NCBI RefSeq assembly: GCF_009557455.1
Contig: NZ_CP045651.1
Coordinates: 372,001-436,000 of the forward strand
Direction of reading: 5' to 3'
Length of the DNA: 64,000 nt
Origin: Alistipes sp. dk3624
GTDB taxonomy: Bacteria; Bacteroidota; Bacteroidia; Bacteroidales; Rikenellaceae
Position numbers and translations under genes: made by a program. The notes beneath the pieces were generated by a model that was not told where the DNA came from, ran no database searches, and worked only from the letters and a program-made list of their open reading frames with translations. This document shows positions 1,530 to 19,074 of this stretch, in pieces. The number at the start of each line of letters is the position of its first letter. Positions within the stretch are counted from its first letter, which is position 1.

Positions 1530-2855
1530 ATGAAAAAATCGCTTTTTACCATTATACTGTCTGTTTTCTTTACATATTCGTTCGCGCAGGGAGAAACATG
1601 GTCGCTGGAGCGCTGCATGCAATATGCCATCGCGAACAGCCCGAGCGCCAAACGGCAGCAATACAGCAACGACAATTACAAACAGGACTATATCAACGCC
1701 ATTGCGAACATGCTGCCGTCGATCAGCGGCAGCGTGAGCGCTACGCCCAATTTCGGCCGTTCGATCAACGACGACAACGTCTACGTCAACAACTCTTCGT
1801 TTAACAATGCCTATTCGCTCTCGGCGTCGATGCCGATCTTCAACGGATTCGCCACGATCAACGCCGTCCGGTCGAGCAAGATCGGACGGCTACTGGGCAA
1901 GGAGTATCAACAACAGGTACACGACGATATCTCGCTGTCGGTGATGGAACGCTATTTCAACGTGATTCTTTACATGGGACTGGTCACCATTGCGGAAGAA
2001 CAACTGCAGGAGAGCGGCCAAAACCTGTTCAAAGCGCGCGAACTCGAAAAGCTCGGACTGCGAAGCAGCGCCGACGTAGCGCAGGTCGAAGCGCAGGTAG
2101 CCACGAACGACGCCAACCTGATCAACCAGCAGAATAACCTGACCAACGCATGGACATTGCTGAAAAACGTCATGAACTACCCCCTGGAAGACTCGCTACG
2201 AATCGACACGGCGATCAACATGATCGACGACGTTCCGCAGGAATCCGCAAGCGAAGTGTTCGTCACGGCGCGAACTCTGCATCCGTCGATCCGGATAGCG
2301 GACTATCAACTCCGGCAAAGTAAGCTGAACTATGCCATGAGCCGGGGACGCCTCTTGCCGTCGGTCAGCCTGTCGGCCGAGTACCATACCAATTATTATA
2401 GCGATAAACAGTCCACTCCGGCGCCGTTCAGCTACCAGTTCCGAAACAAAAGAGGCGGATACATTTCGGCGACGCTGAGCATCCCCATTTTCAACGGTCT
2501 GGCGCGGCGTACCAACGTCAACCGGAACCTGAACAATCTTCGCATCACCGAACAAAACAACGCGGAAACGCTGCGTGCGCTGCAAAGTTCGATCAAGCAA
2601 GCCGTAGACCGCTGCAACGGACTCGCCAAGGAGTACCTGCAAGCCGCCAAACAGGTCAGCGCGACCACGCTGGCGCACCGGGCCGTCCAGCGTAAATACG
2701 ACGAAGGACTGCTCAGTTCGCTCGAACTGCAAACCAGCGCCACGCAGGTGCAGCAGGCAAAATCCTACCTGCTGGACGTCAAACTGCAGTACGTCATCCA
2801 ATACCGGCTGATCCGCTATTACCAGGGAATCCCGCTGATCGAACAGGTTCACTAA
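1530..2855 (+). CDS. TolC-family outer membrane efflux protein
   Basis: Outer membrane channel of a tripartite ABC export system, 441 residues. Residues 1-19 are a signal peptide cleaved after SFA-Q. The mature part has the TolC pattern: long alpha-helical stretches rich in Gln, Asn and Ala, and two repeated halves, each with a strand motif of the type SASMPIFNGF (about residue 105) and SATLSIPIFNG (about 315). There is no lipobox Cys, unlike the OprM-type protein at 39193. First gene of the operon; the adaptor gene follows after 42 bp. Family is certain; the transported substrate is unknown. Confidence 0.93.
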   Translation: MKKSLFTIILSVFFTYSFAQGETWSLERCMQYAIANSPSAKRQQYSNDNYKQDYINAIANMLPSISGSVSATPNFGRSINDDNVYVNNSSFNNAYSLSASMPIFNGFATINAVRSSKIGRLLGKEYQQQVHDDISLSVMERYFNVILYMGLVTIAEEQLQESGQNLFKARELEKLGLRSSADVAQVEAQVATNDANLINQQNNLTNAWTLLKNVMNYPLEDSLRIDTAINMIDDVPQESASEVFVTARTLHPSIRIADYQLRQSKLNYAMSRGRLLPSVSLSAEYHTNYYSDKQSTPAPFSYQFRNKRGGYISATLSIPIFNGLARRTNVNRNLNNLRITEQNNAETLRALQSSIKQAVDRCNGLAKEYLQAAKQVSATTLAHRAVQRKYDEGLLSSLELQTSATQVQQAKSYLLDVKLQYVIQYRLIRYYQGIPLIEQVH

Positions 2856-2897
2856 ACACGCTCCGAAATCGAAAATCAATAAAAACGACAATCATCT

Positions 2898-4145
2898 ATG
2901 GACATCCAACTCAAGCAAAAAAAAGGTCTCAAGAAAAAACATATTCCCTACATCCTGGGAGGAGTATTGCTCCTCTTCATCCTGTGGCTGATTCTCGGCG
3001 ACCACTCTTCGACGCTGGTGATCGACAGCCGCACGATCACCGTCGGGACGGCCAGAAACGACCTTTTCAACGATTATATCCGGGTCAACGGCACCGTGCA
3101 GCCGATCACGATCCTGCAACTCTCCCCGCTGGAGGGCGGCGTGGTCGAAAAGCGGAACATCGAAGAGGGCAACACGGTCAAAGAGGGAGACGTGATCCTG
3201 ACGCTGAGCAACCAAAACCTGAGCGCTTCGGTACTGGAAAGCGAGTCCCAGTTGGCCGACCGGGTGAACGCCCTGCGGAACGCACAGATCCAAATGGAAC
3301 AGGATCGGCTGAACCAGCAAAAAGAGCAATTCGCGACCGACCTCGACATCCAGCGAAAAAAACGGCAGTACCAACAAAAAGAAAAGCTGTACAACGAAAA
3401 GCTGATCGCCAGGGAGGAATACCTGCAAGCCAAAGAAGACTACGAGCTGGTCGAGCGCAGCCGAGAACTGATTATCGAACGCCAGAAGCAGGATTCGCTG
3501 GCCCGTGCCGTACAGATCGATCACCTGAAAGAAAACGTTGAGAACATGAACAAAAACATGGAGTTGATCCGCCAGCGGGTGGAAAACCTGAAAGTAAAGT
3601 CTCCGATCAACGGCGAACTGGTGCAACTGAACGTCGAACTGGGACAGTCGATCGGCGCGGGTCAAAAAGTCGGGCAAATCAACGACCTTTCCGACTTTAA
3701 AATCCAAGCGACGCCCGACGAGCACTACCTCGATAAAGTGCATCCCGGCCTGGACGCCAAATTCGAACGGCAGGGAGTCGAATTCGGTCTGAAAGTCTCG
3801 AAGGTCTACCCGGAAGTGCAGGGCGGACAATTCAAGATCGATTTCCATTTCGAAGGCGAGCGCCCCGACAACATCTGGTCGGGACAGACCTATTACATCA
3901 ACCTCGAACTCGGACAACCCGTCCAAGCGCTGCTGATCCCGCGCGGGGCATTCTACCAGAGCACCGGAGGCAGTTGGATATTCGTCCTGTCGGCAGACGG
4001 TAAAAAAGCTTTCCGACGCAAAATCAAGATCGGACGGCAAAATCCGCAGTTCTACGAAGTGACCGAAGGGCTCGACCCGGACGAAAAGGTAATCGTTTCG
4101 AGTTACGAAACCTATGGCGACAACGACGTGCTGATCCTTCGATAG
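2898..4145 (+). CDS. HlyD/MacA-type periplasmic adaptor of ABC exporter
   Basis: Membrane-fusion protein linking the inner membrane permeases to the TolC-type channel; 415 residues. A basic N-terminus (KQKKGLKKK) is followed by one membrane anchor at about residues 15-33. A split biotinyl-lipoyl domain appears as LSPLEGGVVEKRNIEEG (about 75) and KSPINGELVQLNVELGQ (about 235). Between the halves is a long Gln/Glu/Lys/Arg coiled coil (about 110-225). The C-terminal beta-barrel part contains IPRGAFYQSTGGSW. It lies between the TolC and permease genes with 42 bp on each side, so it should serve all six permeases. Confidence 0.92.
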   Translation: MDIQLKQKKGLKKKHIPYILGGVLLLFILWLILGDHSSTLVIDSRTITVGTARNDLFNDYIRVNGTVQPITILQLSPLEGGVVEKRNIEEGNTVKEGDVILTLSNQNLSASVLESESQLADRVNALRNAQIQMEQDRLNQQKEQFATDLDIQRKKRQYQQKEKLYNEKLIAREEYLQAKEDYELVERSRELIIERQKQDSLARAVQIDHLKENVENMNKNMELIRQRVENLKVKSPINGELVQLNVELGQSIGAGQKVGQINDLSDFKIQATPDEHYLDKVHPGLDAKFERQGVEFGLKVSKVYPEVQGGQFKIDFHFEGERPDNIWSGQTYYINLELGQPVQALLIPRGAFYQSTGGSWIFVLSADGKKAFRRKIKIGRQNPQFYEVTEGLDPDEKVIVSSYETYGDNDVLILR

Positions 4146-4187
4146 CCCCGTCATATTACACAGAAACTGTCAAACCGAAGAATCCGC

Positions 4188-6515
4188 ATGAAGCGACTGA
4201 TCTACACTTTCCGGTACCTGACCCGAAACCGGGGCAACAACCTGATCCGTATCCTGTCCATGACGCTCGGGCTGGTCGTAGGCGCTATTCTGCTGTCGCA
4301 GGTAGCTTTCGACACCTCTTTCGACCGTTTTTATCCGGATGCCGACCGCATTTACCAGGCCCGGTTCGTATGGGTCGGCGAAAATGAAGACGACGTGGCC
4401 GACGGGTTGTTCGGAGAGCCCTGGTCCGTTCTGCGCGACGAGCTGCCGAGAACGGTCTCAGGCACGATGTTTTTCCCCCAACGCAATTTACGTCCCTTTT
4501 ATTACGAGGATCATCCTCACGTTTTCCAAGGACTGTACCACGCCGATTCCGTATTTTTCGATTTTTTCGGAGTGAAACTGACTCAAGGGGATCTCCGCAG
4601 CGGATTCCTGAGCGACCGGAATATTTTCCTATCCGGAAGCTGTGCGGAACGGATGTTCGGCGGGCGAAATCCGGTCGGGGAAATCGTCTTTTACGACAAG
4701 TCCGCCCCTTACACCGTGGCGGGCGTGTTCGAGGATTTTCCGAAAAACAGCACACTGAGTTTCGATGCGCTGATTCCGCTGAGGAACATCGCCCCGTTCA
4801 CGGACATCAACGGATGGCGGCCGAATATGAAATGGGGCGGCACCGACTGTTTCAGGGGATACGTAAAACTGGTTCCGGGAGCCAACCCCGATTCGGTCAA
4901 TGCAGATTTACGGAAAATCTGCAGGAAATACGCAGATACGGACGAGGTCTTTTACAGACTGTATCCGGTAACGCAACTGCACCGGGACAATGCCGACGTC
5001 CGTCATCATGTCTTCATCCGGAGCCTGCTGGCTTTCATCGTGCTGCTCGTCGCGGCGATGAATTACGCGCTGGCTTCGATCTCGTCGCTGGCCACCCGCG
5101 CCCGGACAATGGCAATGTACAAATGCAACGGCAACACCTCTTCCGGCATTTTCGGCATGATGCTTTCGGAGACCGCGATCCTGATCCTGTTGTCGATGCT
5201 GCTGGCCGTTCTTCTCGTTTTTTCATTCAGGCAACCGATCCAGCAAATCATAACCACCCCTTTCAGCGCTATTTTCACGGCCGGCAATCTGACCAAAACG
5301 CTGGCAGTCATCATCCCGCTGTTCCTGATCGCCGGCGTCATCCCGGCCAAAATATTCTCGTCGATCCCGGTCGCGCTGGCATTCCGTAACTATGCGCTAA
5401 ACAAACGGCTGTGGAAACAATTCCTGCTTTTCATCCAGTTCGGATGCGCGGCCCTGATGATCACGTTGCTGGCGATCGTCGTCAGGCAATACCGCCTGGT
5501 GCTTCATAAAGATCTGGGGTTCCGTTACGAGAATCTCGTCTTTGTCCGGTTTCCGGGACTCGACCCGGCACAGGCCGACATGCTGAAACACCAGCTCGGG
5601 AAGCTCCCGGCCGTGCAGGTTGTGTGTTTCGCGTCGGGTCTGCCCGGATATGAATGTTCGGGAGACAACATCTCGGAAGAGGCCACCGGCAGGGGCGTGC
5701 ATATTTTCGCCTACGGCGTCGACTCCGACTTTATCCCGGCAATGGAGATCCGGGTGGCATCGGGCCGTAATTTCGGCGCCGACCCGGCCGGCAATGAAAT
5801 CATTGTCAACGAAGAGTTGGTCGAAAAAATGCAATGGACCGACAGCCCGATCGGGAAAACGGTACTCTTGTTCCAAACTCCGCGCACGATCGTCGGAGTG
5901 GTCGAAAACTTCTACAACCAGCCGCTGATCCGGGAACCGAACTCCGTCATACACCCTTCCGTGCTGATGCCGGCGACGGGGAGCCCGATCCTGATCGCAA
6001 AACTCGACGGGATTACCCCGGAAAAACTCTCCGAAATTCGCAAACTCCTGACGAATCTGTTCCCCTCGACGGATATTACCGTCGATATCTACCGGGAAGT
6101 CATCCGGGCGCAATACGAAAACGAGTTGCACTTTCGCAACACGGTATTCGTCGGCGTGATCGTCACGCTGCTGATCTCGTTGATCGGCTTGGTCGGTTAT
6201 ACGAACAATGAAATCCAGCGCCGCAGCAAGGAAATCGCCATCCGCAAAGTCAACGGAGCGACCGCGAGCAGCATCGTCCGGCTGATCGCCCGCGACCTGC
6301 AATGGATCACATTGGCGGCGCTGGTCGCCGGATTCGCGGGAGCGTATTTGATCGGGGGCAACTGGTTGCTTCGATTCGCGACAAAGACGCCGTTGAACAT
6401 CGGACTGTTCGCCGGATGCGGCTTGACCGTTTGCGCGATCATCGCCGTAACGGTCATCCTAAAAACACGGCGGACAGCCTGCGAAAACCCGGTAAAATCC
6501 ATTAAAAAAGAATAA
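4188..6515 (+). CDS. FtsX/MacB-type ABC permease 1 of 6 (subfamily A)
   Basis: Full-length two-module permease, 775 residues. Transmembrane helix 1 lies at about 22-41, followed by a periplasmic MacB_PCD-like domain with the entry motif FDTSFDRFYPDADRIYQ. A central bundle of helices spans about 270-440. A second periplasmic domain and three C-terminal FtsX helices follow (about 650-770). The conserved RRSKEIAIRKVNGAT coupling segment precedes the last helices, and the protein ends NPVKSIKKE. It carries the subfamily A motif MAMYKCNG in the central FtsX region, shared only with the next permease. No ATPase domain; it must use the ATPase at 18394. Confidence 0.92.
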   Translation: MKRLIYTFRYLTRNRGNNLIRILSMTLGLVVGAILLSQVAFDTSFDRFYPDADRIYQARFVWVGENEDDVADGLFGEPWSVLRDELPRTVSGTMFFPQRNLRPFYYEDHPHVFQGLYHADSVFFDFFGVKLTQGDLRSGFLSDRNIFLSGSCAERMFGGRNPVGEIVFYDKSAPYTVAGVFEDFPKNSTLSFDALIPLRNIAPFTDINGWRPNMKWGGTDCFRGYVKLVPGANPDSVNADLRKICRKYADTDEVFYRLYPVTQLHRDNADVRHHVFIRSLLAFIVLLVAAMNYALASISSLATRARTMAMYKCNGNTSSGIFGMMLSETAILILLSMLLAVLLVFSFRQPIQQIITTPFSAIFTAGNLTKTLAVIIPLFLIAGVIPAKIFSSIPVALAFRNYALNKRLWKQFLLFIQFGCAALMITLLAIVVRQYRLVLHKDLGFRYENLVFVRFPGLDPAQADMLKHQLGKLPAVQVVCFASGLPGYECSGDNISEEATGRGVHIFAYGVDSDFIPAMEIRVASGRNFGADPAGNEIIVNEELVEKMQWTDSPIGKTVLLFQTPRTIVGVVENFYNQPLIREPNSVIHPSVLMPATGSPILIAKLDGITPEKLSEIRKLLTNLFPSTDITVDIYREVIRAQYENELHFRNTVFVGVIVTLLISLIGLVGYTNNEIQRRSKEIAIRKVNGATASSIVRLIARDLQWITLAALVAGFAGAYLIGGNWLLRFATKTPLNIGLFAGCGLTVCAIIAVTVILKTRRTACENPVKSIKKE

Positions 6516-6544: not shown

Positions 6545-8869
6545 ATGAAAACGCTCTCCTATGCCTTCAAATACCTGCTCAAACTGCGTGGAAACAATGT
6601 AATCAAGCTGATATCCATCACAATGGGGTTGTTTCTCGGATGGGTGTTCCTGGCAAAAATCGTCTATGTGGAATCTTACAACAAATCGTTCCCCGACGCA
6701 GAACGGATCTACCGTGTGGACGAACGTGTAACCCTGCCCGACCGGGAGATCAGGGCCGGATACATATCGGCGCCCGTCGCCCCGGCCCTGAAAGACGAAT
6801 TCCCGGAAATCGAAACCGCTACGGTCATCTGCCGGCATTTCCCTTTGCTGACACACGGCGAACATCCTTTCGAGATAAACATAGCCTGTACAGACACGGC
6901 GTTTTTCGACTTGTTCAGTATCGAAGTCCTGTCCGGCGATCCGGAGCAGGCTCTTCAGGATCCGGACAACCTGTTCCTTTCCCGAAAAACGGCGCGACGG
7001 ATCTTCGGCGAAGCCGACCCGATCGGACAAATGCTGGAGGAAGCGACCGGAACCCATTACCGGGTAGCCGGGATATTCGAGGATCTGCCGGATAATACGG
7101 ATGTAAGATGTGAAGGAATCGTTTCGTTCGACAACGTAAAAAAAATGCGCCGGAATTCGGGATGGGGCGGCGGAGACAGTTATACGGGGTACGTAAGGCT
7201 CGTTCCCCAAGCCGTTCCCGATTCGATAGAACCGCGGATCATGGACGTACTGCAAAAGTATTACGATTATGCCGGCGATGCCGCGCAAGGGTTCAAGATC
7301 GAATATTTTTTCAATCCGATGACCGACATTTACGCGCAACAACCCGACGTTAAAAACGCAACGCAACTGCTGATCCTGCTCGCCGTTGCGATCCTGTTCG
7401 TATCGGCGCTGAATTACGTCCTGTCGAACTTTTCTTCCCTCCCGGAACGAGGCCGGACCATGGCGATGCACAAATGTAACGGAGCCCGCAAATCGGACAT
7501 CTTCAGCATCATGATGAGCGAAACGTCCCTATTGATCCTGATTTCGTTCCTGTTCGTCATCGCTTTGCTGTTCGGTTTGCGGGACACCATCCAGAAAATG
7601 GTCGGAGCGACTCCGAAAATGCTTTTCTCCGGATATAATCTCAGGTATATCATCCCGATAGTCGCCGGAGTATTCCTGCTGGCAGGGCTGGTACCGGCGA
7701 ATCTGCTCGCAAGAATTCCCGTCACGACCGCCTACCGGCGCTATTCGCCGAGCAACCGGTTGTGGAAGCAGGCATTACTGCTGATCCAGTTTACTGCGGT
7801 AACACTGCTGATTTCGCTGCTGGTCACGGTGGCCAGGCAATACGACCTGATGCTGCGGGAAAATCCGGGATACAATACGAAAAACATGCTTCATACCGAG
7901 GCTCTGGCGGGCAGAAACATCCAACAGTACGAAACCGCCAGGCAGGAATTGTTGTCGCTGCCTTTCGTGACCGGAATCGGAGCGGGATGCCACCCGCTCG
8001 AAGGAGGGTATTCCGGAAACCCTGTTCAGGACGATCAGAAAAACAATCTCTTCGTCACGCGTCTTGACGTGATTTCACCGGACTACATACCCACGATGGG
8101 TATCCAACTGAAGCAAGGCGAAAACTTTGAAAATATGCCCACCGAGGGACAGGTGATCGTCAACGAAGAGTTCGTGCGAAAAATGGGCTGGCAGGGCAAT
8201 CCGGTCGGGAACAGTTTTTTCTTCGGCAGCCCGACCCCTTGCACCGTCATCGGCGTGGTCCGGGATTTCCGGACGTCGACACTGCGCGCCGGCATCGAAC
8301 CGCTGGCCCTGTTCTGTATGAACGACCAGAACGGCATAGAAGACATTCAGATCCGCGTCGATGCGATCACGCCGGAAAATATCGCGTCATTGACCGCAAA
8401 GCTGAAAACCCTGGCGCCGGAACAGGATATCCGGATCTGGGCTTACGACGACCTGACGCTCAATGCCTATTACAACGAAAGAATGTTGCGCAACATGATA
8501 TTCGTCGGCGTATTCATTACGCTGGCAATAAGCCTGATCGGGCTGCTCGGCTTCATCAACGACGAAATCCGCCGCCGCAGCAAGGAGATCGCCATCCGCA
8601 AAGTGAACGGAGCGACTCCGGGCAGCGTCGTCCGGCTGATAGCATCCGATCTGAAATACACCGTATGCGCCGGCATCGTAGCGGGGCTCGGCCTGTCCTT
8701 CCTGCAAGGCAGACACTGGCTGGAACGCTTCGCCGTTAAAGTACCGCTGAGTTTGTGGATCTACATCGTTTGCGGGATAGCCGTCGCCGGGCTGATCTGT
8801 GCAATCACCGTCCTGAAAATCCGCAAAACGGCCAACGAAAACCCGGTCAATTCGATCAAAAAAGAGTAA
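6545..8869 (+). CDS. FtsX/MacB-type ABC permease 2 of 6 (subfamily A)
   Basis: Paralogue of the preceding permease, 774 residues and the same layout: N-terminal helix, periplasmic domain starting with YNKSFPDAERIYRVDE, central helices with MAMHKCNGARKSDIF, a second periplasmic domain, then RRSKEIAIRKVNGATPGSVVRLIASDL and the terminal ENPVNSIKKE. The close match to permease 1 in both membrane modules marks the two as a subfamily distinct from permeases 3-6. Starts 29 bp after its neighbour. Substrate unknown. Confidence 0.92.
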   Translation: MKTLSYAFKYLLKLRGNNVIKLISITMGLFLGWVFLAKIVYVESYNKSFPDAERIYRVDERVTLPDREIRAGYISAPVAPALKDEFPEIETATVICRHFPLLTHGEHPFEINIACTDTAFFDLFSIEVLSGDPEQALQDPDNLFLSRKTARRIFGEADPIGQMLEEATGTHYRVAGIFEDLPDNTDVRCEGIVSFDNVKKMRRNSGWGGGDSYTGYVRLVPQAVPDSIEPRIMDVLQKYYDYAGDAAQGFKIEYFFNPMTDIYAQQPDVKNATQLLILLAVAILFVSALNYVLSNFSSLPERGRTMAMHKCNGARKSDIFSIMMSETSLLILISFLFVIALLFGLRDTIQKMVGATPKMLFSGYNLRYIIPIVAGVFLLAGLVPANLLARIPVTTAYRRYSPSNRLWKQALLLIQFTAVTLLISLLVTVARQYDLMLRENPGYNTKNMLHTEALAGRNIQQYETARQELLSLPFVTGIGAGCHPLEGGYSGNPVQDDQKNNLFVTRLDVISPDYIPTMGIQLKQGENFENMPTEGQVIVNEEFVRKMGWQGNPVGNSFFFGSPTPCTVIGVVRDFRTSTLRAGIEPLALFCMNDQNGIEDIQIRVDAITPENIASLTAKLKTLAPEQDIRIWAYDDLTLNAYYNERMLRNMIFVGVFITLAISLIGLLGFINDEIRRRSKEIAIRKVNGATPGSVVRLIASDLKYTVCAGIVAGLGLSFLQGRHWLERFAVKVPLSLWIYIVCGIAVAGLICAITVLKIRKTANENPVNSIKKE

Positions 8870-8890: not shown

Positions 8891-11215
8891 ATGATTTTTT
8901 TTAAAAACTTTCTCTACCTGCTACGGCATCACAAAGCGGCCGCCCTGCTGAACCTCGCAGGACTGACCGTCGCGCTCGCCTCGTTCATGCTAATCGTCAT
9001 GCAGGTCGACTACGACCTGGGCTATGACCGGCAGTACGAAAACGCCGACCGGATTTTCCGGATCGAACGCAGTTCGGCAGCGGACAACGCCACCGTCTTT
9101 TCACCCTGGATCGGCAACGACTTTTCGACCGTCGAACAAATGACCGCATCCGTTCCGGACATCGCAGGGGAAGGCGGACTGAGATGGTTTTCAAACAATG
9201 TTTTCGACGAGTCGGAGACACGGTTTCCGATCCGGTGCATACAGGTCACGGAAAACTGGCCGGAGGTATTCGGTTTCCGGTATGTCGGGGGAGATCCGGA
9301 CAGGCTTTCCGAACCGGGCACAGCCGTCGTTCCGGAAAGTTTTGCAAAAACGGCCTTTCCGGACGGCGACGCCGTCGGCAAAACGCTGATTCCGGAAAAT
9401 TACGAAAAACCGCTACAAATCGTCGCCGTTTACCGGGATTTTCCGAAGAATTCATCCGTAAAAAACGATGTCTACACGGTTCGTCCGCTCGAAACTACCA
9501 TCTCCGACATCATGTATTATATCGTGGCGAACGATGCCGGACACAAAGCGAAAATAGAGGCCGATCTGACCCGGAAAATCCGGGAGACCGACGGCGATTC
9601 GACGAAACGTATCCGGCTCCATAACCTGCACGACGTATATTATGCGACGGACTGCATCAGCGACTCCCACGAAAAAGGCAGTCGCGCGACCACCTTGTCG
9701 CTGATCGCCGCCGCCATTCTGATTCTCGGGATCGCCGCCATCAATTCGGTCAATTTCGCGATCGCACTGATACCGACCCGCGTACGAAGCCTGAACGCTC
9801 GTAAGATTTTCGGATGCAAAACTTCCGTATTACGGCGCAATCTGATCGCCGAAACTGTCGGGACAACGCTGGTTGCATTTTTACTGGCGCTGTGCATCGT
9901 ACAATGGCTGTCTCCGCTGTCGGCGAATCTGCTGAACGGAATCGCTTCGCCGAGCGAGAATCCGGCTGCGATCTGGATCTCGCTGGCCGCCGCTTCGACA
10001 ACCGGGATACTTTCGGGACTTTACCCGGCTTTTTACAGCACCTCGTTCAATCCGGCCCTCGCGATCCAGGGAAATTTCGGAAATACCCGTACCGGGAAAC
10101 GGCTGCGCACCGTGCTGATTGCAACACAGTTCATGGTCACTATCGGCTTTATCGCAGCGGCCCTGCTCATTCACCGGCAAGACAGGTTTCTGAAAAGCCA
10201 CGATCTCGGCTTCCGGCAACAAAACATCCTGATAACGACCGTATCGTCGAAAACGAGCGAACAACCGGACGCATACGCCGGCATGCTGAAAAGCCATCCC
10301 GCCATCGCTGACGTCACCTTCTCGTTCGGCCAACTCGTCGACCGCACCCCTCCGATGCGGCTTTCGTCCGTTTACAAAAATCGAACAAGCAAATTCTGCG
10401 TCTATTGCGTAGCGTCCAATTTCTTGTCGTTCATGGGAATGGAGATTGCCGAAGGGCGCGACTTCCGGGAAACCGACCGTCTGAAAGAAAACAATACGTT
10501 CATTTTCAATCAAACGGCCGAAAGAAAATACGGCATAGAACCGAACAGCACGATCCACGGTTTCACCGCCCGGGACGACATCGCAGGGATTGTCCGGGAC
10601 TTCAACTACCAGCCGTTGCAATACGCGATCGAACCGGCCGCCTTTTGCCTGTTCGGAATCAATGACTGCATTCCGCTGAACGTCGTTTACGTGAAAGTCA
10701 ACGGAGGCGATCTGGCGGCCGTCATCGGGCACATCCGGGAAACGGGCGGGAAATTCGACATCCGAAACCGGGCTCAGGACATCGTTTTCATGGATCAAGC
10801 GATCGGCAACCTGTATCGGAAAGAAGCCCTTTTTTCGAAACAGATCGCCCTGTTCAGCCTGCTGTCGATCCTCATATCGGTCGTCGGAGTCTTCGGCCTC
10901 GTGCTGTTCGACATGCAGTACCGCCGCAAAGAGATCGGGCTGCGGAAAGTACACGGCGCCACCTCAGGAGAAATCCTGCGCATGTTCAATGCCGGATACA
11001 TACGGATAATTCTGATCTGTTTCGCCGTCGCGACGCCGATAACGTGGTACGCGGGCGACAAGTGGCTGGAACGGTTCGCTTACCGGACTCCGATCGATCC
11101 GTGGATATTCGGCACGGCCCTATCGCTCGTGCTGTCGATTACCGTCGCGACCATTTCGCTATTGTGCTACCGTACCGCCCGTGAAAACCCGGCCGACTCG
11201 ATCCGGAAAGAATAA
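8891..11215 (+). CDS. FtsX/MacB-type ABC permease 3 of 6 (subfamily B)
   Basis: 774 residues, same two-module fold. The N-terminus (KNFLYLLRHHKAAALLNLAG) and the motif VDYDLGYDRQYENADRIFR start the first periplasmic domain. The central region has RVRSLNARKIFGCKTSVLRRNLIAE in place of the CNG motif of permeases 1-2. The coupling segment is YRRKEIGLRKVHGATSGEI. It is the first of four subfamily B proteins in the operon. Ends ENPADSIRKE. Starts 21 bp after permease 2. Confidence 0.92.
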   Translation: MIFFKNFLYLLRHHKAAALLNLAGLTVALASFMLIVMQVDYDLGYDRQYENADRIFRIERSSAADNATVFSPWIGNDFSTVEQMTASVPDIAGEGGLRWFSNNVFDESETRFPIRCIQVTENWPEVFGFRYVGGDPDRLSEPGTAVVPESFAKTAFPDGDAVGKTLIPENYEKPLQIVAVYRDFPKNSSVKNDVYTVRPLETTISDIMYYIVANDAGHKAKIEADLTRKIRETDGDSTKRIRLHNLHDVYYATDCISDSHEKGSRATTLSLIAAAILILGIAAINSVNFAIALIPTRVRSLNARKIFGCKTSVLRRNLIAETVGTTLVAFLLALCIVQWLSPLSANLLNGIASPSENPAAIWISLAAASTTGILSGLYPAFYSTSFNPALAIQGNFGNTRTGKRLRTVLIATQFMVTIGFIAAALLIHRQDRFLKSHDLGFRQQNILITTVSSKTSEQPDAYAGMLKSHPAIADVTFSFGQLVDRTPPMRLSSVYKNRTSKFCVYCVASNFLSFMGMEIAEGRDFRETDRLKENNTFIFNQTAERKYGIEPNSTIHGFTARDDIAGIVRDFNYQPLQYAIEPAAFCLFGINDCIPLNVVYVKVNGGDLAAVIGHIRETGGKFDIRNRAQDIVFMDQAIGNLYRKEALFSKQIALFSLLSILISVVGVFGLVLFDMQYRRKEIGLRKVHGATSGEILRMFNAGYIRIILICFAVATPITWYAGDKWLERFAYRTPIDPWIFGTALSLVLSITVATISLLCYRTARENPADSIRKE

Positions 11216-11238: not shown

Positions 11239-13593
11239 ATGAAAATCTTGTTACGAAACTTAGTCAACCTGTTCGCCCGGAACAAAACAGCCGCCCTGCT
11301 GAACATAGCCGGACTTACCGTTGCGTTCGCTTCGTTCATGCTCATCATGATGCAGGTATGGTATGAACTCGGATACGACCGATGCTACCCGAATGCCAAC
11401 CGGATATACGGGCTCTGTTTTCAAGTACCGCAATCCGGCGATCTGGGCACCGTGCTGCCCCGGCCGCTGGCCGAAAAACTGCTCCGGTCATCAGCCGGAA
11501 TCGAAACGGGCGGATGCCTATCGTATCAACACGGAGATCCCAACGTTCCGTTCTTTCGGCCCGAACGAGGGCCGGAGTCGGCTATCGCCGCCGGTTTTTC
11601 GCTCGTTTCGCGATCCTGGTTGGATGTCTTCGGATTCGAAACGCTTTCCGGCGACCTAAACGCCTTTTCCGAACCCAACGCGGCGATTATTCCCCATTCG
11701 CTGGCCGTAAAGCTTTTCGGCAGCGAAAACCCGGTCGGGCAAACCATTGCCAAGTCGGAAGGATACCGGGAGGCCGCCCAATTTACGATCGTCGCCGTAT
11801 ACCGTGATTTTCCGAAAAACGCCTCGTTGAAAAACGATGTCTATACCGACCTGAAGGAGCGGCTGCTCCAAGATTTCAACAACTGTTCGACCCCTTATTT
11901 CGTCCGGGTAAAACAGAATGCCGACATCCGCCGAATCGAACAGGATCTGCTACCCCTCGTATGGAATTATGCGAAAACGTATGACGAAGACTCGACAAGA
12001 AGCCAACGGCTACGGCTCGTCGGATTGAACGACCTCTATTTCTTCAACGAAACGATCTCCCAGGAAGGGGGAAACCGCAACACCACCTATTCGCTGCTGA
12101 CGGTTGCCCTGCTGATCCTGCTGATCGCGGTTATCAACTTCATTAATTTCACGATCGCACAGGCTCCGGCGCGCATGCGCAGTATCAATACGCAAAAAGT
12201 ATTCGGATGCCGCTCCCGGCAGTTGCGGATCAATCTGATCGCCGAAGCGGTCTGCCTGACGGCAGTCTCGTTCCTGCTGGCCGTACTCACCGTTCACGCA
12301 CTGGAAGAAACGAACCTATCTTCGCTGATTACCGGAGGAATCTCGCCCGGCGACTATCCCGGCCTGATCCCGATTTCTGCGGGAATCGCACTGCTGACCG
12401 GTTTTATCGCAGGAATCTATCCCGCTTTTTACATTACATCCTTGCAACCCGCCCTGGCGCTGAAGGGGACGTTCTCCGTCTCCCGGCCGGGTAAAAAACT
12501 ACGCGTCGTCCTTATTGCGGTTCAGTTCTCCATCTCGATGATACTAATTATCGTTGCGCTGGCGGTTCATATTCAAAACCGCTATATTCGACAATTCGAC
12601 ATCGGGTTGCCGCGCGAAAATATCGTAACGTTCGATCTGGGCCCGTTAGCGGGCAGATCGGCCGACCCGTTGATCCATAAGCTGAAAAGCAATCCGGACA
12701 TCGCCGACGTAACCCTCAGCCGCACTTTTATCGTCAGCAAAGGCGGAACGTTTTGCAACCGCCTTTATAAAAACGATGAAATCGGTTTCCGACTCATGGG
12801 GGTTGCGCCGAATTTTTGTTCTTTCATGGGAATGCACCTGGTCGAAGGACGGGATTTCACGGAGACCGACCAGCAGAGGGACGCTCCCGCCCTTATTTTC
12901 AACCGAACGGCAAAAAAACTTTATGACATAACCGTCCCCGACTGGCTGGAACATTCCGGAGAAATCGTCGGCATCGTCGAAGATTACCACGATAAACCGT
13001 TGCATTACTCCATCGAACCGATAGCTCTGATCGTATACGATCGTTCGTCGCCGTTGTACTGCATGTACGTCAAAATAAACAATCCCGATCCCGGACCGGC
13101 TATCGCTTTCATCAGGGAAGCCTACCGGACACTCAGTCCGCAGAGGCAGGTTCCCGACGTAAAATTCATGGAAGAACAACTGGGCAACCTGTATCAGAAG
13201 GAACGAAACCTTTCGGAAATGATTTTCCTGTTCAGCCTGGTGTCGGTATCGCTTGCGATCACCGGGGTTTTCGGAGTCATCCATTTCGAAACCTCCAGCC
13301 GGCGCAAGGAGATCGCTCTACGTAAAGTGTACGGTTCCCAAACCGGCGAAATTCTTCGGATGTTTAACAAAACCTACATCCGCATCGTATTGATATGCTT
13401 TGCGGTCGCGGCGCCTGCGGCCTATATCGTCGTAAAACGATGGCTCGAAAGCTTCACCTATAAAACACCGATCCCTAGTTGGATCTTCCTCATGGCGCCG
13501 GCTATCGTGCTGATTATCGTCGTCGCCGTCATCACGCTGCGCTGCTACAAAACCGCGACGGACAATCCTATAAAATCGATCCGAACCGAATAA
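11239..13593 (+). CDS. FtsX/MacB-type ABC permease 4 of 6 (subfamily B)
   Basis: 784 residues, two FtsX modules. Motifs: WYELGYDRCYPNANRIYG after helix 1, RMRSINTQKVFGCRSRQLRINLIAE in the middle, RRKEIALRKVYGSQTGEI before the last helices. The usual G-A-T of the coupling segment is G-S-Q here, the most divergent of the six. The C-terminus DNPIKSIRTE is encoded by a 26 bp block identical to that of permease 5, which suggests recent duplication or gene conversion. Starts 23 bp after permease 3. Confidence 0.92.
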   Translation: MKILLRNLVNLFARNKTAALLNIAGLTVAFASFMLIMMQVWYELGYDRCYPNANRIYGLCFQVPQSGDLGTVLPRPLAEKLLRSSAGIETGGCLSYQHGDPNVPFFRPERGPESAIAAGFSLVSRSWLDVFGFETLSGDLNAFSEPNAAIIPHSLAVKLFGSENPVGQTIAKSEGYREAAQFTIVAVYRDFPKNASLKNDVYTDLKERLLQDFNNCSTPYFVRVKQNADIRRIEQDLLPLVWNYAKTYDEDSTRSQRLRLVGLNDLYFFNETISQEGGNRNTTYSLLTVALLILLIAVINFINFTIAQAPARMRSINTQKVFGCRSRQLRINLIAEAVCLTAVSFLLAVLTVHALEETNLSSLITGGISPGDYPGLIPISAGIALLTGFIAGIYPAFYITSLQPALALKGTFSVSRPGKKLRVVLIAVQFSISMILIIVALAVHIQNRYIRQFDIGLPRENIVTFDLGPLAGRSADPLIHKLKSNPDIADVTLSRTFIVSKGGTFCNRLYKNDEIGFRLMGVAPNFCSFMGMHLVEGRDFTETDQQRDAPALIFNRTAKKLYDITVPDWLEHSGEIVGIVEDYHDKPLHYSIEPIALIVYDRSSPLYCMYVKINNPDPGPAIAFIREAYRTLSPQRQVPDVKFMEEQLGNLYQKERNLSEMIFLFSLVSVSLAITGVFGVIHFETSSRRKEIALRKVYGSQTGEILRMFNKTYIRIVLICFAVAAPAAYIVVKRWLESFTYKTPIPSWIFLMAPAIVLIIVVAVITLRCYKTATDNPIKSIRTE
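13555..13580 (+). repeat. 26 bp block shared with 15924-15949 (copy 1)
   Basis: The 3' end of permease 4 is identical over 26 bp, including all third codon positions, to the 3' end of permease 5. The flanking bases are also very similar. This marks a recent duplication or conversion tract within the permease array. Confidence 0.75.
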
Positions 13594-13610: not shown

Positions 13611-15962
13611 ATGCATACGCTGAAAAACCTGATTTTGCCATTTAAAAAGTACAAAGTCGCCGCCATACTCAACATCATCGGACTGTCGGTAGCTTTCGCC
13701 TCGTTCACGATCATTACGACACAGGTGAAGTACGACTTTTCGTTCGACCGGCATTACAAAAACAAAGACCGGATTTTCAGGCTCGAAACCCGTTCTTTCG
13801 ACGGCAATGTCCACAACGCGGTGGTAAGCCGGCCGATGGCAAAACCGTTGGGTTCGATTCCCGAAGTGGAACGACAAGGCTTGTTCACCGGCGGCCCGGA
13901 GCTTGCCGTCTATGATAAAAATGCCGGAAAAAACGCGCAGCAAGGCCCTTTCCGCATCTATTCCGCCGAGCCCGGCGCGCTGGACGTACTGGAATTCGAA
14001 TACGTCCGGGGAAATGCGCAACGTTTTCGCGAACCGAACACGGTATTGATCTCCGAAACGGTCGCCACCGCCCTCTACGGAACGGAAGATCCCGTAGGGC
14101 GCAGTCTGATCCTCGCGCTGGATACCGAAGCCCCGCAGGAGATCATCGGAGTCTACAAAGATTTCCCGAAAAACGGATCGGTGGAAACCGGCAGCATCGT
14201 CCGTTTTATCGGGGATGCGGATATTAACGCCAACAACGAAAGCTACGTCTATTATATCCGGCTGAATGCTCCGCAAAACAGGGGAAAAGTCGAAGCGGAA
14301 CTGTGGAACTTCAACAAACATTCCGATATCTTCAAACAGATTAAAGAAGATTCGACCATTTTCCGACTGAGCCCGATCTCCGAAATCCATTATTTGAAAA
14401 ACGTCCGGTTCGATCCTACTCCTAAAAGCAGTCGCACAACGGTCTGGTCGTTACTGGCCATCGCCGTGCTGATCATCGGGATCGCCATTGTCAATTTCGT
14501 CAATTTTTCCATCGCGCTCACGCCGGTTCGCCTGCGCAGCATCAATACACAGAAAGTGTTTGGCAATACCAACGGAGCCATCCGCTGCAACCTGATCGGG
14601 GAAGCCATGGGGATCGCCCTCCTTTCGCTACTTCTGTCGCTGATCGTCGTAAAGCTCTTCGCTGGCTCCGCATACGCCTCGTTCATCGAGAGTTGCACAA
14701 AAATCGGATCCGATCTGCAAATCCTGGCGATAACGGCCGTCGTCGCCATCGTTACCGGTCTGCTGTCGGGCATTTATCCTGCATTTTACGCGACTTCGCG
14801 GCCCCCAATCCTGGCGATCAAAGGCTCTTTTGCTCTTTCGCCGAAAGGGAAGCGCGTGCGGACGCTGCTCATCGCGTTCCAATTCGTCATTTCGATCGTC
14901 CTGATTGTTTTCTCCATTTCGATCCACGTTCAAAACCGCTACATGCAACGGTTCAATATGGGATTCGAGCGCGACAACATCTTGATCCAGCAGTGGATCG
15001 GAAGCAGGATAGCCTCGCAAAAGGATGCGTTCGCCGACAAGCTGAAAAGCAATCCGGCAATCGTCGACGTTACGTTCTCCAGCGGAAAAATCGTGGATCT
15101 CAACAAATCCCGCTGGGGTCAAACGTATAAAGGGGAACTGATTGCCCCGAATATTTTTCCGGTAGCGCCGAACTTCCTGTCGTTCATGGGAATCGGAATT
15201 ACGGAAGGACGCGACTTTATTGCGGACGACAACCGGAAATCCAACTTTACCGTCATATTCAACCAAACGGCCCAACGCCAGTACGGACTGACAGTCGGAG
15301 AACGATTCGGAGAGTGGGACATAGCAGGCATCGCCCGGGATTTCAACTTCAAGCCGCTGCAATACGGTATCGAACCGATCGCTTTCGCCGTATTCGGCGA
15401 CCATCCGATTGCGAAGAGCTGGCAGACAGGCACCCTGTACGTTAAAGTCAACCCGGCGAATCTTTCCGCCACCTTGAAGTTTATCCGGGAAACCATACAA
15501 GAATTCGATCCGGATGCGGAAGAAAATCTCGTATTTCTGGACGATTCAATCGGACAACTGTATCAGAAAGAACGGAACCTCTCGACCCTGATTTTGCTGT
15601 TCAGCCTACTGTCGATGCTGATCTCGGTCGTCGGCATATTCGGTCTCGTGCTGTTCGAAACACAGTACCGGCGTAAGGAGATCGGCATCCGGAAAATCCA
15701 CGGCGCGACCGTCGGCGAAATCCTCCGAATATTTAACGGCACTTATGTCCGGATCGTACTGGCCTGCTTCGTTGTCGCGACACCGGTCGCTTATTACGGA
15801 GTAAAACGATGGCTCGAAAATTTCGCTTACCGAACGCCGATCCATAGTTGGATCTTCCTCGCCGCGCTGATCGTCGTACTAAGCGTCGTCGTCGCGATCA
15901 TCACGCTTCGCTGCTACAAAACAGCGACGGACAATCCTATAAAATCGATTAAAACCGAATAA
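13611..15962 (+). CDS. FtsX/MacB-type ABC permease 5 of 6 (subfamily B)
   Basis: 783 residues, two FtsX modules. N-terminal KNLILPFKKYKVAAILNIIG, then VKYDFSFDRHYKNKDRIFRLE, RLRSINTQKVFGNTNGAIRCNLIGE and YRRKEIGIRKIHGATVGEILR. It is most like permease 6 over much of its length (SFDRHYKN, IRKIHGATVGEILR) but shares its extreme 3' end with permease 4, a mosaic pattern expected from exchange among tandem copies. Starts 17 bp after permease 4. Confidence 0.92.
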   Translation: MHTLKNLILPFKKYKVAAILNIIGLSVAFASFTIITTQVKYDFSFDRHYKNKDRIFRLETRSFDGNVHNAVVSRPMAKPLGSIPEVERQGLFTGGPELAVYDKNAGKNAQQGPFRIYSAEPGALDVLEFEYVRGNAQRFREPNTVLISETVATALYGTEDPVGRSLILALDTEAPQEIIGVYKDFPKNGSVETGSIVRFIGDADINANNESYVYYIRLNAPQNRGKVEAELWNFNKHSDIFKQIKEDSTIFRLSPISEIHYLKNVRFDPTPKSSRTTVWSLLAIAVLIIGIAIVNFVNFSIALTPVRLRSINTQKVFGNTNGAIRCNLIGEAMGIALLSLLLSLIVVKLFAGSAYASFIESCTKIGSDLQILAITAVVAIVTGLLSGIYPAFYATSRPPILAIKGSFALSPKGKRVRTLLIAFQFVISIVLIVFSISIHVQNRYMQRFNMGFERDNILIQQWIGSRIASQKDAFADKLKSNPAIVDVTFSSGKIVDLNKSRWGQTYKGELIAPNIFPVAPNFLSFMGIGITEGRDFIADDNRKSNFTVIFNQTAQRQYGLTVGERFGEWDIAGIARDFNFKPLQYGIEPIAFAVFGDHPIAKSWQTGTLYVKVNPANLSATLKFIRETIQEFDPDAEENLVFLDDSIGQLYQKERNLSTLILLFSLLSMLISVVGIFGLVLFETQYRRKEIGIRKIHGATVGEILRIFNGTYVRIVLACFVVATPVAYYGVKRWLENFAYRTPIHSWIFLAALIVVLSVVVAIITLRCYKTATDNPIKSIKTE
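15924..15949 (+). repeat. 26 bp block shared with 13555-13580 (copy 2)
   Basis: Second copy of the identical 3'-end block, encoding the ATDNPIKSI segment of permease 5. Confidence 0.75.
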
Positions 15963-15986
15963 CCAAACTACAAACGCTTGCCAATC

Positions 15987-18344
15987 ATGACACCTTTGAA
16001 AAATTTCTTCCACGTACTGAAAAAGTACAAAATCGCTTCGCTGCTCAACGTCATTGGGTTGAGTATCGCATTCGCCTCGTTCATGATTATCATGACGCAG
16101 GTAAAATACGATCTGTCGTTCGACCGGCATTACAAAAATGCGGATCGGATATTCCGGGTCGAAAATCAGGCAATGACCGAAAACGGAAAGTATAGCGCCA
16201 ACACCTCCCGCCTGGTGGCGGAAAAGGTGTTCGCAGCAGAACCCGAAATCGAAAAAACGGGACTGATCCAAAGTTATCAACAGCTCGACATCTACGACCA
16301 GAGTCTCGGGAAAGACTCCCGTCAGGGCCCTTTCCACTTTTATACCGCCGAACCCGACGCGCTGGATATATTGGAATTCGAATTCGTTCACGGCAGTCCG
16401 CAGCGTTTTTCGGAATCCGGGACGGTATTGATCTCGGAACAGGTCGCCACAGCGATTTACGGCGACCAAAACCCGGTCGGACGCAGCCTTATTTTCGACA
16501 AGGACACGGAGCACCCGGTAGAGATCGTCGGAGTTTATAAAAACTTTCCGCAAAACGCGACGATAAGATCCAACAGCATCGTCCGGTTTATCGGCCAGGA
16601 AAATGCCGGCAACGGCAACAACTGGAATTACGTCTATTACATCCGGCTGAACGCAAGGGAAAATGCCGAGCAAGTCATGCAGGCCATGAACAAAAAGTAT
16701 CAGGAGTTCGTCGGTACGGGAAATTCGGTTCCGGACAACTTTTTCCGGCTCACTCCGATCACCGAAACCCATTTTACACAAAGCGTCAGCTACAGTCCGA
16801 CGGATACGGGCAACCGCGCGACGGTCTACTCCCTGATGAGTATCGGCGTTCTGATTATCCTGATCGCTATGATCAACTTCGTCAATTTCTCCACTTCGCT
16901 TATTCCGACCCGTATCCGCAGCATCAACGTCCAGAAAGTGCTGGGCGGATCGAACGCCGCCATCCGACGGAACATGATTGCGGAATCGGCGGGACTCGCG
17001 GTCGTCTCGTTTTTCGTTGCGCTGCTGATCGTTCATGCATTCTCCGGAACGCCGCTGGCATCCGACATCAGCGCCCCGTGCGACGTCGGAGCCGATATGC
17101 CGATTCTGTGGGGCACGGCGCTTATCGCCGTCGCGACCGGAATCCTGTCCGGAATATACCCGGCTTTTTACAGCACCTCGTTCGCTCCGGCGCTCGTAGT
17201 GAAAGGCGTTTTCGGGCTTACCCCGAAAGGACGCCGTTTGCGCACGGTACTGATATCGGTACAGTACGCGATATCGATCACATTGATCATCGTCACACTG
17301 TCGATACACAGACAAAACCGTTACATGCAAAAATCCGATATGGGGTTCCAACGTGAAAATATCCTGACCACATGGGTGCCCCGTGAAATAGCCGACAAAA
17401 GAAAAACCCTGGCCGACAAGCTGACGAGCAATCCCGCCATCACGGACGTGACTTTCGCCGCCGGACCGTTTGTCGCAAAAGGACGGATGCGCTGGGGACG
17501 TAGTTACAAAGGAAAAGGCATTACTTATGACGCCTATCCGGTAGCTTCGAATTTTTTACGTTTCATGGGAATCCGGATTACGAACGGACGCGATTTCAAC
17601 GAAAACGATGATTTAAAACCGGAAATATCTCAAATATTCAACGAAACGTCTCAGCGGAAAGACAGCATCACAGTCGGCGAAAAGATGGAGGACGGAACAA
17701 ATATCGTAGGCATCGCCAGAGATTTCAATTTTCAACCGCTGCAATACGGCATCAATCCGTTCGCATTCGTCACGTTCGGGACAACCGAATGGGGCGCGTG
17801 GACTCCGCTGCGCTATCTGTTCGTCAAGACCAACGGAACGGATATTCCCGCCGTCGCGGATTTCATCAGGAAATCCGTCAAAGAGCTGGTTCCGGACAGC
17901 CAGCTCGACATCAGATTCATGGACGAAGAGATCGGAAATCAATACTACAAAGAACAAAAACTGTCGAATTTACTCACCTTGTTCAGCCTGCTGTCGATCT
18001 TGATCTCGATCGTAGGGGTATTCGGCCTCGTGCTGTTCGAAACCCAGTACCGTCGCAAAGAGATCGGGATTCGGAAGATCCACGGCGCGACTGTCGGCGA
18101 GATCCTCCGGATGTTCAACAAAATTTACGTGCGCATCGTACTGGCGTGTTTCGTTGTCGCCGTACCGATAGCTTACTGCATCGTCGACCGGTGGCTCGAA
18201 AACTTCGCCTACAAAGCTCCGGTCGAAATCTGGATTTATCTCGCGGCGCTGGCGATCGTGCTGGGAACCACCGTCGCCACCGTACTGATCCAGACGTACC
18301 GGGCCGCCACGGACAATCCCGTCCGGTCGTTGAAAAAACATTAA
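15987..18344 (+). CDS. FtsX/MacB-type ABC permease 6 of 6 (subfamily B)
   Basis: 785 residues from the ATG at 15987; a TTG nine bases upstream is in frame, but the ATG matches the N-termini of the other copies (MTPLKNFF against MHTLKNLI). Motifs: VKYDLSFDRHYKNADRIFRVE, RIRSINVQKVLGGSNAAIRRNMIAE, YRRKEIGIRKIHGATVGEILR. It ends DNPVRSLKKH, the only copy not ending in Glu. Last permease of the array; the shared ATPase gene starts 49 bp downstream. Confidence 0.91.
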   Translation: MTPLKNFFHVLKKYKIASLLNVIGLSIAFASFMIIMTQVKYDLSFDRHYKNADRIFRVENQAMTENGKYSANTSRLVAEKVFAAEPEIEKTGLIQSYQQLDIYDQSLGKDSRQGPFHFYTAEPDALDILEFEFVHGSPQRFSESGTVLISEQVATAIYGDQNPVGRSLIFDKDTEHPVEIVGVYKNFPQNATIRSNSIVRFIGQENAGNGNNWNYVYYIRLNARENAEQVMQAMNKKYQEFVGTGNSVPDNFFRLTPITETHFTQSVSYSPTDTGNRATVYSLMSIGVLIILIAMINFVNFSTSLIPTRIRSINVQKVLGGSNAAIRRNMIAESAGLAVVSFFVALLIVHAFSGTPLASDISAPCDVGADMPILWGTALIAVATGILSGIYPAFYSTSFAPALVVKGVFGLTPKGRRLRTVLISVQYAISITLIIVTLSIHRQNRYMQKSDMGFQRENILTTWVPREIADKRKTLADKLTSNPAITDVTFAAGPFVAKGRMRWGRSYKGKGITYDAYPVASNFLRFMGIRITNGRDFNENDDLKPEISQIFNETSQRKDSITVGEKMEDGTNIVGIARDFNFQPLQYGINPFAFVTFGTTEWGAWTPLRYLFVKTNGTDIPAVADFIRKSVKELVPDSQLDIRFMDEEIGNQYYKEQKLSNLLTLFSLLSILISIVGVFGLVLFETQYRRKEIGIRKIHGATVGEILRMFNKIYVRIVLACFVVAVPIAYCIVDRWLENFAYKAPVEIWIYLAALAIVLGTTVATVLIQTYRAATDNPVRSLKKH

Positions 18345-18393
18345 TTATTTTCCGAACATTCATAATCATCCATTCTTTTTAAAAATTACTGCT

Positions 18394-19074
18394 ATGTTGA
18401 AAGTTGAAGAACTGAGCAAGAGCTTCCGTACGGAAGAGATCGAAACCATCGCTCTGAACAAGGTTTCGTTCGAAGTCACCGAAGGCGAATTCATTGCGGT
18501 CATGGGGCCGTCCGGCTGCGGCAAATCGACGCTGTTGAACATCCTCGGGCTGCTGGACAACCCTACCTCGGGCAAATACTACCTGCTCGGAAAGGAAGTC
18601 GGAACCCTGAAGGAAAAAGACCGCACGCTGTACCGCAAAGGCAAAATCGGTTTCGTTTTCCAAAGTTTCAACCTGATCGACGAACTGAACGTCTACGAGA
18701 ACGTCGAACTGCCTTTGATCTACCTGCGCGTCAAAGCCGCCCAGCGCAAAAAAATGGTCAACGAGATCCTCGACCGGATGAATATCAGCCACCGCGCCCG
18801 CCACTTTCCCCAACAGCTTTCCGGAGGTCAGCAGCAGCGCGTCGCCATCGCCCGCGCCGTCGTTTCGAACCCGAAGCTGATCCTCGCCGATGAGCCCACC
18901 GGCAACCTCGACTCGAAGAACGGCAAAGAGGTCATGGATCTGCTGACCGAACTGAACAAGGAGGGCACGACCGTCGTAATGGTAACCCACTCGCAGCACG
19001 ACTCCTCCTACGCATCGCGCACGATCGACCTGTTCGACGGCGAGATCGTAACCGACGTGAAAGCCTTCCTGTAA
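18394..19074 (+). CDS. ABC transporter ATPase, MacB/LolD type
   Basis: 226-residue nucleotide-binding subunit. Walker A GPSGCGKST (38-46), Q-loop Q90, signature LSGGQQQR (142-149), Walker B LILADE with catalytic E167, then the D-loop TGNLDS, and switch His in VTHSQ. The sequence is typical of stand-alone ATPases that drive FtsX/MacB permeases by mechanotransmission. It is the only ATPase gene in the operon and lies last, so it should power all six permeases as a homodimer under each permease pair. A strong terminator follows. Confidence 0.95.
   Translation: MLKVEELSKSFRTEEIETIALNKVSFEVTEGEFIAVMGPSGCGKSTLLNILGLLDNPTSGKYYLLGKEVGTLKEKDRTLYRKGKIGFVFQSFNLIDELNVYENVELPLIYLRVKAAQRKKMVNEILDRMNISHRARHFPQQLSGGQQQRVAIARAVVSNPKLILADEPTGNLDSKNGKEVMDLLTELNKEGTTVVMVTHSQHDSSYASRTIDLFDGEIVTDVKAFL

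Follow-up and report, generated by a model that had tools for sequence, protein, structure and literature searches.

A stretch of 64,000 nucleotides from Alistipes sp. dk3624, called the window here, covers positions 372001-436000 of a single-contig genome of 3.02 Mb. Near its beginning lies an operon in which six intact tandem two-module permease genes (P1-P6) are accompanied by one gene each for a TolC-family outer-membrane channel, a periplasmic adaptor and an ATPase. This inventory had been proposed in an initial annotation and is confirmed by the open reading frames (ORFs) and by Pfam; a divergent sigma-54 response regulator, a histidine kinase and a seventh, unlinked permease were absent from that annotation. 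The features are listed in window positions unless marked otherwise, with permease classes taken from a tree described below.

2..1318, minus strand: sigma-54 (NtrC-type) response regulator (Pfam Response_reg, Sigma54_activat and HTH_8), cut by the window start
L009 14648-15958, just beyond the window edge, minus strand: histidine kinase (HATPase_c and PAS) with two N-terminal membrane helices
1477..1492, plus strand: putative, degenerate sigma-54 (-24/-12) promoter AGGTACGATTTTGGTA, 38 nt before the tolC start
1530..2855, plus strand: TolC-family outer-membrane channel (Pfam OEP, 3.3e-49)
2898..4145, plus strand: HlyD/DarC-like periplasmic adaptor (HlyD_3; NCBIfam DarC 185 bits, cut-off 450)
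4188..6515, plus strand: P1, double-length permease, class I (MacB_PCD and FtsX; AlphaFold (AF2) model)
6545..8869, plus strand: P2, double-length permease, class I (Pfam)
8891..11215, plus strand: P3, double-length permease, class II (Pfam)
11239..13593, plus strand: P4, double-length permease, class II (Pfam)
13611..15962, plus strand: P5, double-length permease, class II (Pfam)
15978..18344 (listed TTG start), plus strand: P6, double-length permease, class II (Pfam; AF2 model)
18394..19074, plus strand: single ATPase of 226 amino acids, DarD/LolD/MacB-like nucleotide-binding (ABC_tran 1.8e-35; top NCBIfam match DarD, 284 bits, cut-off 375)
19118..19143, plus strand: terminator-like hairpin of 10 pairs

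None of the six permeases contains an internal stop, and Pfam finds MacB_PCD and FtsX twice in each of them except P3, which has one MacB_PCD stretch. They share invariant residues in the coupling helices (R304, R306, K312 and G315; R679, K681, E682, R686, K687 and G690 in P1 numbering), and their pairwise identities span 26-55%, with P5 and P6 forming the 55% pair and the other 14 of 15 pairs lying at 26-46%. Chance or artefact was considered as an explanation of the array and rejected, the copies being intact, diverged and co-conserved with their partners.

The spacing of 17-29 bp given in the initial annotation holds for four of the spacers between permeases (29, 21, 23 and 17 bp). The last one measures 15 bp with the listed TTG start of P6 at 15978 and 24 bp with the in-frame ATG at 15987, which is the likelier start. 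The terminator after the ATPase, also proposed earlier, corresponds to the terminator-like hairpin at 19118-19143, which the scan reports for the minus strand alone; the sequence itself has TTTT 3' of the stem on the plus strand. Since the scan returned 41 terminator-like sites vs 25 in shuffles, such matches mostly mean little.

Permease architecture and classes

Hydropathy profiles show eight peaks in every permease except P2, which has seven; in P3 one of the eight falls inside the second periplasmic domain. Models of P1 (pLDDT 87.9, pTM 0.87, 38 sequences) and P6 (pLDDT 89.8, pTM 0.85, 48 sequences) were obtained with AlphaFold, and both follow the order helix, periplasmic domain, three helices, with the whole order repeated once. 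The top PDB match of both models in Foldseek is E. coli YbbP, aligned over the whole length (E values of 3.9e-16 and 1.6e-19). Next come chains of MacB, of a MacB-like permease from Streptococcus and of LolC/LolE, whose alignments span the length of one half, and BceB. YbbP is described as pseudosymmetric and as mimicking a MacB dimer, and its single chain binds two ATPases (PMC12646458, excerpt), and fused permeases with a separate ATPase are described in a MacB review (PMC5985334, excerpt). Each permease chain of the window is accordingly read as a fused pseudo-dimer with about eight membrane helices and two coupling helices, the fold being predicted for P1 and P6. Coupling helix 2 keeps a glutamate and an arginine in 100 of 100 sequences of classes I-III; coupling helix 1 keeps both in class III (19/19), and they are mostly lost in class I (glutamate in 21%) and class II.

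The classes derive from a tree of 125 permeases, built by a quick method with SH-aLRT support only, which contains three supported groups in Bacteroidales: class I (P1 and P2), class II (P3-P6) and class III, absent from the window. The six permeases of the window belong to two classes that predate the family. Across arrays the three classes are mixed without a fixed combination and no class is constant; arrays expand and shrink, and some duplications are lineage-specific. Obligate class combinations were rejected, the mixes being irregular across arrays. Two divergent double permeases (L023 14585 and L026 4571) stand outside the three classes, with scores to two classes within 30 bits of each other and a position apart in the tree; one of them adjoins the kinase gene of a single-permease operon.

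The components of the operon have diverged at very different rates. The window ATPase is 92% identical to its counterparts in G001, G003 and G005 and 84% to that in G002. Compared with G003 and G005, malate dehydrogenase, our single housekeeping yardstick, is 79% identical, the adaptor 75-76%, TolC 59% (G005 only) and the closest permease pairs (P1, P2 and P4) 46-47%. Within the permeases the periplasmic domains are the least conserved parts, with 32-41% identity vs 51-63% for the blocks of transmembrane helices TM2-4 and TM6-8 in three orthologue pairs. Omega (NG86) was computed between the congeners G003 and G005: the ATPase has 0, malate dehydrogenase 0.021, the adaptor 0.039, the regulator 0.058 and the kinase 0.085, and three permeases have 0.153, 0.292 and 0.322 (0.199, 0.439 and 0.311 in their periplasmic parts). 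With omega at 0.153-0.322 vs 0, the permeases of these two genomes are under purifying selection, weaker than that on the motor. Between two close species (L018 2157 vs L019 10972), synonymous divergence varies strongly from one gene to its neighbours, at 0.34 in one permease and 0.09-0.11 in the other two; this unevenness suggests that single permeases are exchanged by recombination.

Recurrence of the array and its ATPase

A search profile made from the six window permeases was used to survey related genomes, with the best candidates scored in each (at most 10 in the family, at most seven in the phylum). Own genome included, matches occurred in 7 of the 9 genus members, in 48 of 100 genomes from the family Rikenellaceae and in 41 of 148 from the phylum; the two genus members without a match are 69% and 79% complete. 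The family loci taken further were annotated with profiles from family members, were mostly chosen for high-scoring or multiple matches rather than at random, and in part come from near-identical species (L029/L033; L018/L019). Among them, 26 including the window hold TolC, adaptor and one ATPase of the array type together, and the sigma-54 regulator is in view at 25 of these 26, L028 being cut on that side. Full-length permeases number six in four operons (the window, L017, L031 and L074), five in four, four in four, three in seven, two in two, one in three and none in two. The single permease is of class II in L023 and L035 and of class III in L145. One extra incomplete permease occurs in each of L028 and L152, and a further permease lies beyond the kinase in L023. 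The count omits L147, where TolC and adaptor go with a different ATPase, and L018, where TolC went undetected; it includes L035, which also has an adjoining system with its own ATPase, and L074, whose ATPase is cut by the stretch end.

At two loci, L143 (G011) and L144 (G025), TolC, adaptor, ATPase and regulators are kept and the permease ORFs of the operon are broken, possibly through decay. The initial annotation had raised the prospect that most copies are inactivated; this applies only to these two relatives, in which all copies are broken, and not to the window with its six intact ones.

Outside the family, the largest array seen with one ATPase has 10 permeases on a whole 45.8-kb contig (G243) that ends about 4 kb past the array, followed by eight permeases and one ATPase in 47 kb (G226) and by at least seven permeases with one ATPase of the array kind on a contig of Parabacteroides acidifaciens (L058). 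Other arrays carry two ATPases, one window-like and one more distant, next to 16 (G208), nine (G222) and nine (G161) permeases. A second, different ATPase stands at the far end of arrays from other families (L050, L129, G208, G222 and G161). Because of the larger arrays elsewhere in the phylum, six permeases are a high number for the family but not an extreme one. The initial annotation had counted a common arrangement as a point against its interpretation, and the layout is indeed common and not unique, given the 26 chosen family loci and phylum arrays of up to 16 permeases. The arrangement is a real, intact and recurrent design of the family and the phylum, and no description of tandem multi-permease arrays was recognised in searches of the openly available literature, preprints lying outside that coverage.

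The array type was defined as an ATPase that scores 340 bits or more against that of the window, a line set after the scores had been seen (the lowest score over the line is 355, the highest under it 268). By this definition the ATPase occurs in 41 of 100 family genomes, exactly once in each, and all 41 also have double permeases (one to at least 10 matches, fragments possible). It occurs in none of the 52 permease-free family genomes (Fisher p 3.7e-21, a value that is only descriptive because the species are related). Seven family genomes have permeases and lack a full match to the array ATPase. In five of them (G050, G054, G072, G076 and G094) the permeases lie at a contig edge, where the ATPase of G054 is cut; a sixth, G055, has a permease whose position was not located, and the seventh is taken up below.

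In the genome of the window itself PF00005 has 36 matches; those in 11 fetched stretches, nine of them with ATPase ORFs, were compared with the array ATPase, and the rest lie mostly in long ORFs. The nearest ATPases compared are 53%, 48% and 45% identical to it, each adjoining its own single-length permeases, and a further seven, spread over six stretches, have 28-35% identity. A separate ATPase elsewhere for each permease, the other circumstance that the initial annotation had held against itself, was not found among these compared ATPases, which are part of the 36 matches. The seventh double permease, of class I, is unlinked (G000:C1:564600-566975; L010 8600-10978) and adjoins a LepA-like GTPase gene, as read from the sequence; no array-type ATPase lies within its 20-kb stretch, and in the tree it clusters with permeases from the arrays of a congener and of Parabacteroides. 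Taken together, gene counts and conservation support the putative sharing of one motor.

Regulation and surroundings of the operon

Upstream of tolC, 23 regions (21 after removal of two from contigs fetched twice) were compared with a 12-position sigma-54 consensus and with mononucleotide shuffles. In 19 of 23 regions the best site directed towards tolC agrees with nine or more of the 12 consensus positions, vs one region in the opposite direction, and in 13 of 23 regions (12 of 21) fewer than 5% of shuffles reach the score of this site. In 11 of the 23 relatives this site overlaps the ORF start, which was set as the first start codon and is therefore often too early. No convincing site was found upstream of tolC in L017, L031 and L092, and across the window the sigma-54 pattern has 8 matches vs 9.3 expected. 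The site of the window at 1477-1492 aligns with AGGCACGATATTGGCA and AGGCACAATTTTGGCA of two congeners in a well-conserved block. The genome encodes sigma-54 (rpoN), and sigma-54 promoters are predicted to be enriched before COG0577 permeases in Bacteroidia (PMC12316311, excerpt).

The kinase next to the regulator has hydropathy peaks at residues 12-28 and 33-49 with about four residues between them. Among 37 regulator-adjoining kinases in these loci, 31 have two N-terminal helices at most 25 residues apart and six miss this criterion. The kinase BceS likewise has two helices joined by a short loop, and a proposed role for it is to sense how its FtsX-type transporter cycles (PMC10314905 and PMC5985334, excerpts); by analogy the kinase here might do the same.

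Downstream of the operon follow malate dehydrogenase and GltD, as read from the sequence, and then a glycoside hydrolase-like protein; these flanks vary among relatives. No conserved cargo gene adjoining the array was seen in the flanks read, in which very short ORFs were not searched systematically. Farther along, the window contains a nitrogen-assimilation cluster (22407-33113) with GltD- and GltB-like ORFs, a type III-like glutamine synthetase (read from the sequence) and an ammonium transporter, as well as genes for an AcrAB-type RND efflux adaptor and pump (34882-39189).

A probable shared motor, its alternatives and known relatives

We consider it fairly probable that the operon encodes alternative tripartite exporters of the type VII (mechanotransmission) kind, which share ATPase, adaptor and TolC, carry diversifying heads and are induced jointly. 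Each permease chain would be a whole transporter with two MacB-like halves, two periplasmic domains and two coupling helices, would recruit two copies of the shared ATPase, and would dock, one permease at a time, to the single adaptor type and TolC. The differing periplasmic heads, of classes I and II here and of class III in relatives, would each collect other amphipathic or peptide-like molecules, either in the periplasm or in the outer leaflet of the inner membrane, and expel them via TolC. The whole set would be induced by the divergent response regulator, probably from a sigma-54 promoter, while the membrane-embedded two-helix kinase would sense membrane stress or transporter activity. 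The computed basis consists of the layout, the intact copies, the predicted pseudo-dimer fold of P1 and P6, the one ATPase per bearing family genome, the fast heads and slow motor, and the purifying selection in two congeners. We infer that all of P1-P6 use this ATPase, adaptor and TolC and that ATPase and permease combine 2:1, and likewise the nature of the substrates and of the signal for induction. Induction is probably by envelope stress via sigma-54; that the substrates are antimicrobial or other amphipathic molecules is a guess by analogy with the protein families and the regulator.

Several observations weigh against this scheme. The match to YbbP is structurally modest, with TM values of 0.45-0.46 and an rmsd of 11-12. 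Two equal ATPase contacts are not certain, because coupling helix 1 has mostly lost its glutamate and arginine in classes I and II, and these sequences hint at one main ATPase contact in both classes. The sigma-54 site of the window agrees with only 8 of 12 positions at a shuffle fraction of 0.415, and is degenerate and not significant alone. In the family, G009 has a true mid-contig orphan double permease and no array-type ATPase. Outside the family, 7 of 14 annotated stretches show at least two ATPases and the other seven show one, some of them edge-cut. G249, the Parabacteroides acidifaciens genome of L058, has four array-type ATPases (316-398 bits) on four contigs, so it probably has several such operons and 'one per genome' is limited to the family sample. 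Owing to the two-ATPase arrays in other families, a strict one-ATPase rule fails phylum-wide.

The initial annotation had offered two ideas, different substrates that share one motor and exit duct, or mixed permease dimers. The former is the better of the two and fits the 41 of 100 family genomes with one ATPase, the single-permease operons and the contrast between slow ATPase and fast periplasmic domains; that the substrates differ is something we only infer. The latter would make the operon a combinatorial exporter, in which different permeases assemble into pairs or larger oligomers that share an ATPase pair and a TolC duct; the tight spacing of the six paralogues beside a single motor gene and the many arrays that mix classes I, II and III speak for it. 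A mixed dimer is not needed, however, because each chain is already predicted to be a complete two-half transporter with two coupling helices, like YbbP; such pseudo-dimer chains and the operons with one permease only (class II in L023 and L035, class III in L145) argue against obligate mixed dimers, and the class combinations are irregular, which leaves this explanation very improbable. Redundant copies could instead raise the capacity for one substrate, in keeping with the 55% identity of P5 and P6, the expansion and shrinkage of arrays and some lineage-specific duplications. Such a dosage effect is quite unlikely given that 14 of 15 pairs are only 26-46% identical, that the two classes are older than the family and that the periplasmic domains diverge fastest.

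A division of labour, in which some permeases are sensors that gate the kinase in the manner of Bce systems and only some are exporters, is unlikely, yet it would fit the adjoining kinase, which in 31 of 37 loci has two helices and a short loop as BceS does (PMC10314905 and PMC5985334, excerpts), and the coupling helix 1 that is degenerate in classes I and II and not in III. Against it, no class is constant across arrays, and the cytoplasmic PAS domain of the kinase could itself be the sensor. We give hardly any credence to the idea that the operon is dedicated to the export of, or immunity to, a peptide made by the bacterium itself, in the manner of the darobactin system DarBCD: DarD and DarC are the top-scoring families for ATPase and adaptor, and DarB ranks second for five permeases and third for P3, but all scores are below the curated cut-offs, and the malate dehydrogenase, GltD and glycoside hydrolase-like genes downstream, with flanks that differ among relatives, do not point that way.

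With the shared-motor exporters preferred, the best reading of their relation to known systems is that they work like MacAB-TolC, DarBCD or YbbAP and belong to none of them. DarBCD (NF038008/NF038010/NF038007) also combines a double-length permease with a separate ATPase and a separate adaptor, and provides the top family matches of the latter two; the window differs in its six permeases and in scores far under the cut-offs (DarB 28-98 against 700, DarC 185 against 450, DarD 284 against 375). The dar cluster includes a precursor and a radical SAM gene (PMC9055067, excerpt); neither was recognised among the neighbouring ORFs read, for which no radical SAM family search was made and very short precursors were not sought. 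E. coli YbbAP(-TesA), the top PDB match to P1 and P6, shares the single-chain pseudo-dimer permease, the two coupling helices and the separate ATPase, whereas YbbP has 10 membrane helices with two linking helices, compared with about eight in the window permeases, and works with TesA and not, as reported, with adaptor and TolC. MacAB-TolC shares with the window the MacB_PCD and FtsX domains and the adaptor and TolC partners in the operon (known here from genes alone). In MacB, however, the ATPase is fused to a four-helix homodimeric permease, while the window has a separate ATPase, permeases of about 780 amino acids with two halves, and several permeases per motor.

ADOP (TIGR03434) is the top NCBIfam match of all six permeases and likewise internally duplicated, with window scores of 174-247 bits against a cut-off of 622; ADOP permeases are known as orphans without an ATPase gene nearby, unlike the window operon with its ATPase at 18394-19074. 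Group II ECF importers and MsmK-type shared ATPases offer a precedent in which one energising module serves several membrane parts, but these are importers, whereas the window genes would form an export system across two membranes. BceAB-RS also has an FtsX-type transporter adjoining a regulator and an intramembrane-sensing kinase, a type to which the kinase of the window belongs by its helix layout. It is a Gram-positive system with one large extracellular domain and no adaptor (PMC5985334, excerpt). That domain lies between TM7 and TM8, whereas the window permeases have two periplasmic domains, and the window regulator is sigma-54-dependent by its domains.

A broader proposal is more tentative and falls somewhat short of probable: Bacteroidota may possess widespread, undescribed 'one motor, many heads' tripartite exporters, in which a slow-changing ATPase serves one to at least 10 pseudo-dimeric permeases, unlinked orphans included, together with a common adaptor and TolC, as an export counterpart of group II ECF systems, with larger arrays elsewhere adding a second ATPase. 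If this is true, gut and environmental Bacteroidota would acquire new export specificities as further permease heads join an unchanging motor, and ATPase-free orphan permeases would have a candidate motor. It may also bear on how these bacteria withstand antimicrobials of the host or of competitors.

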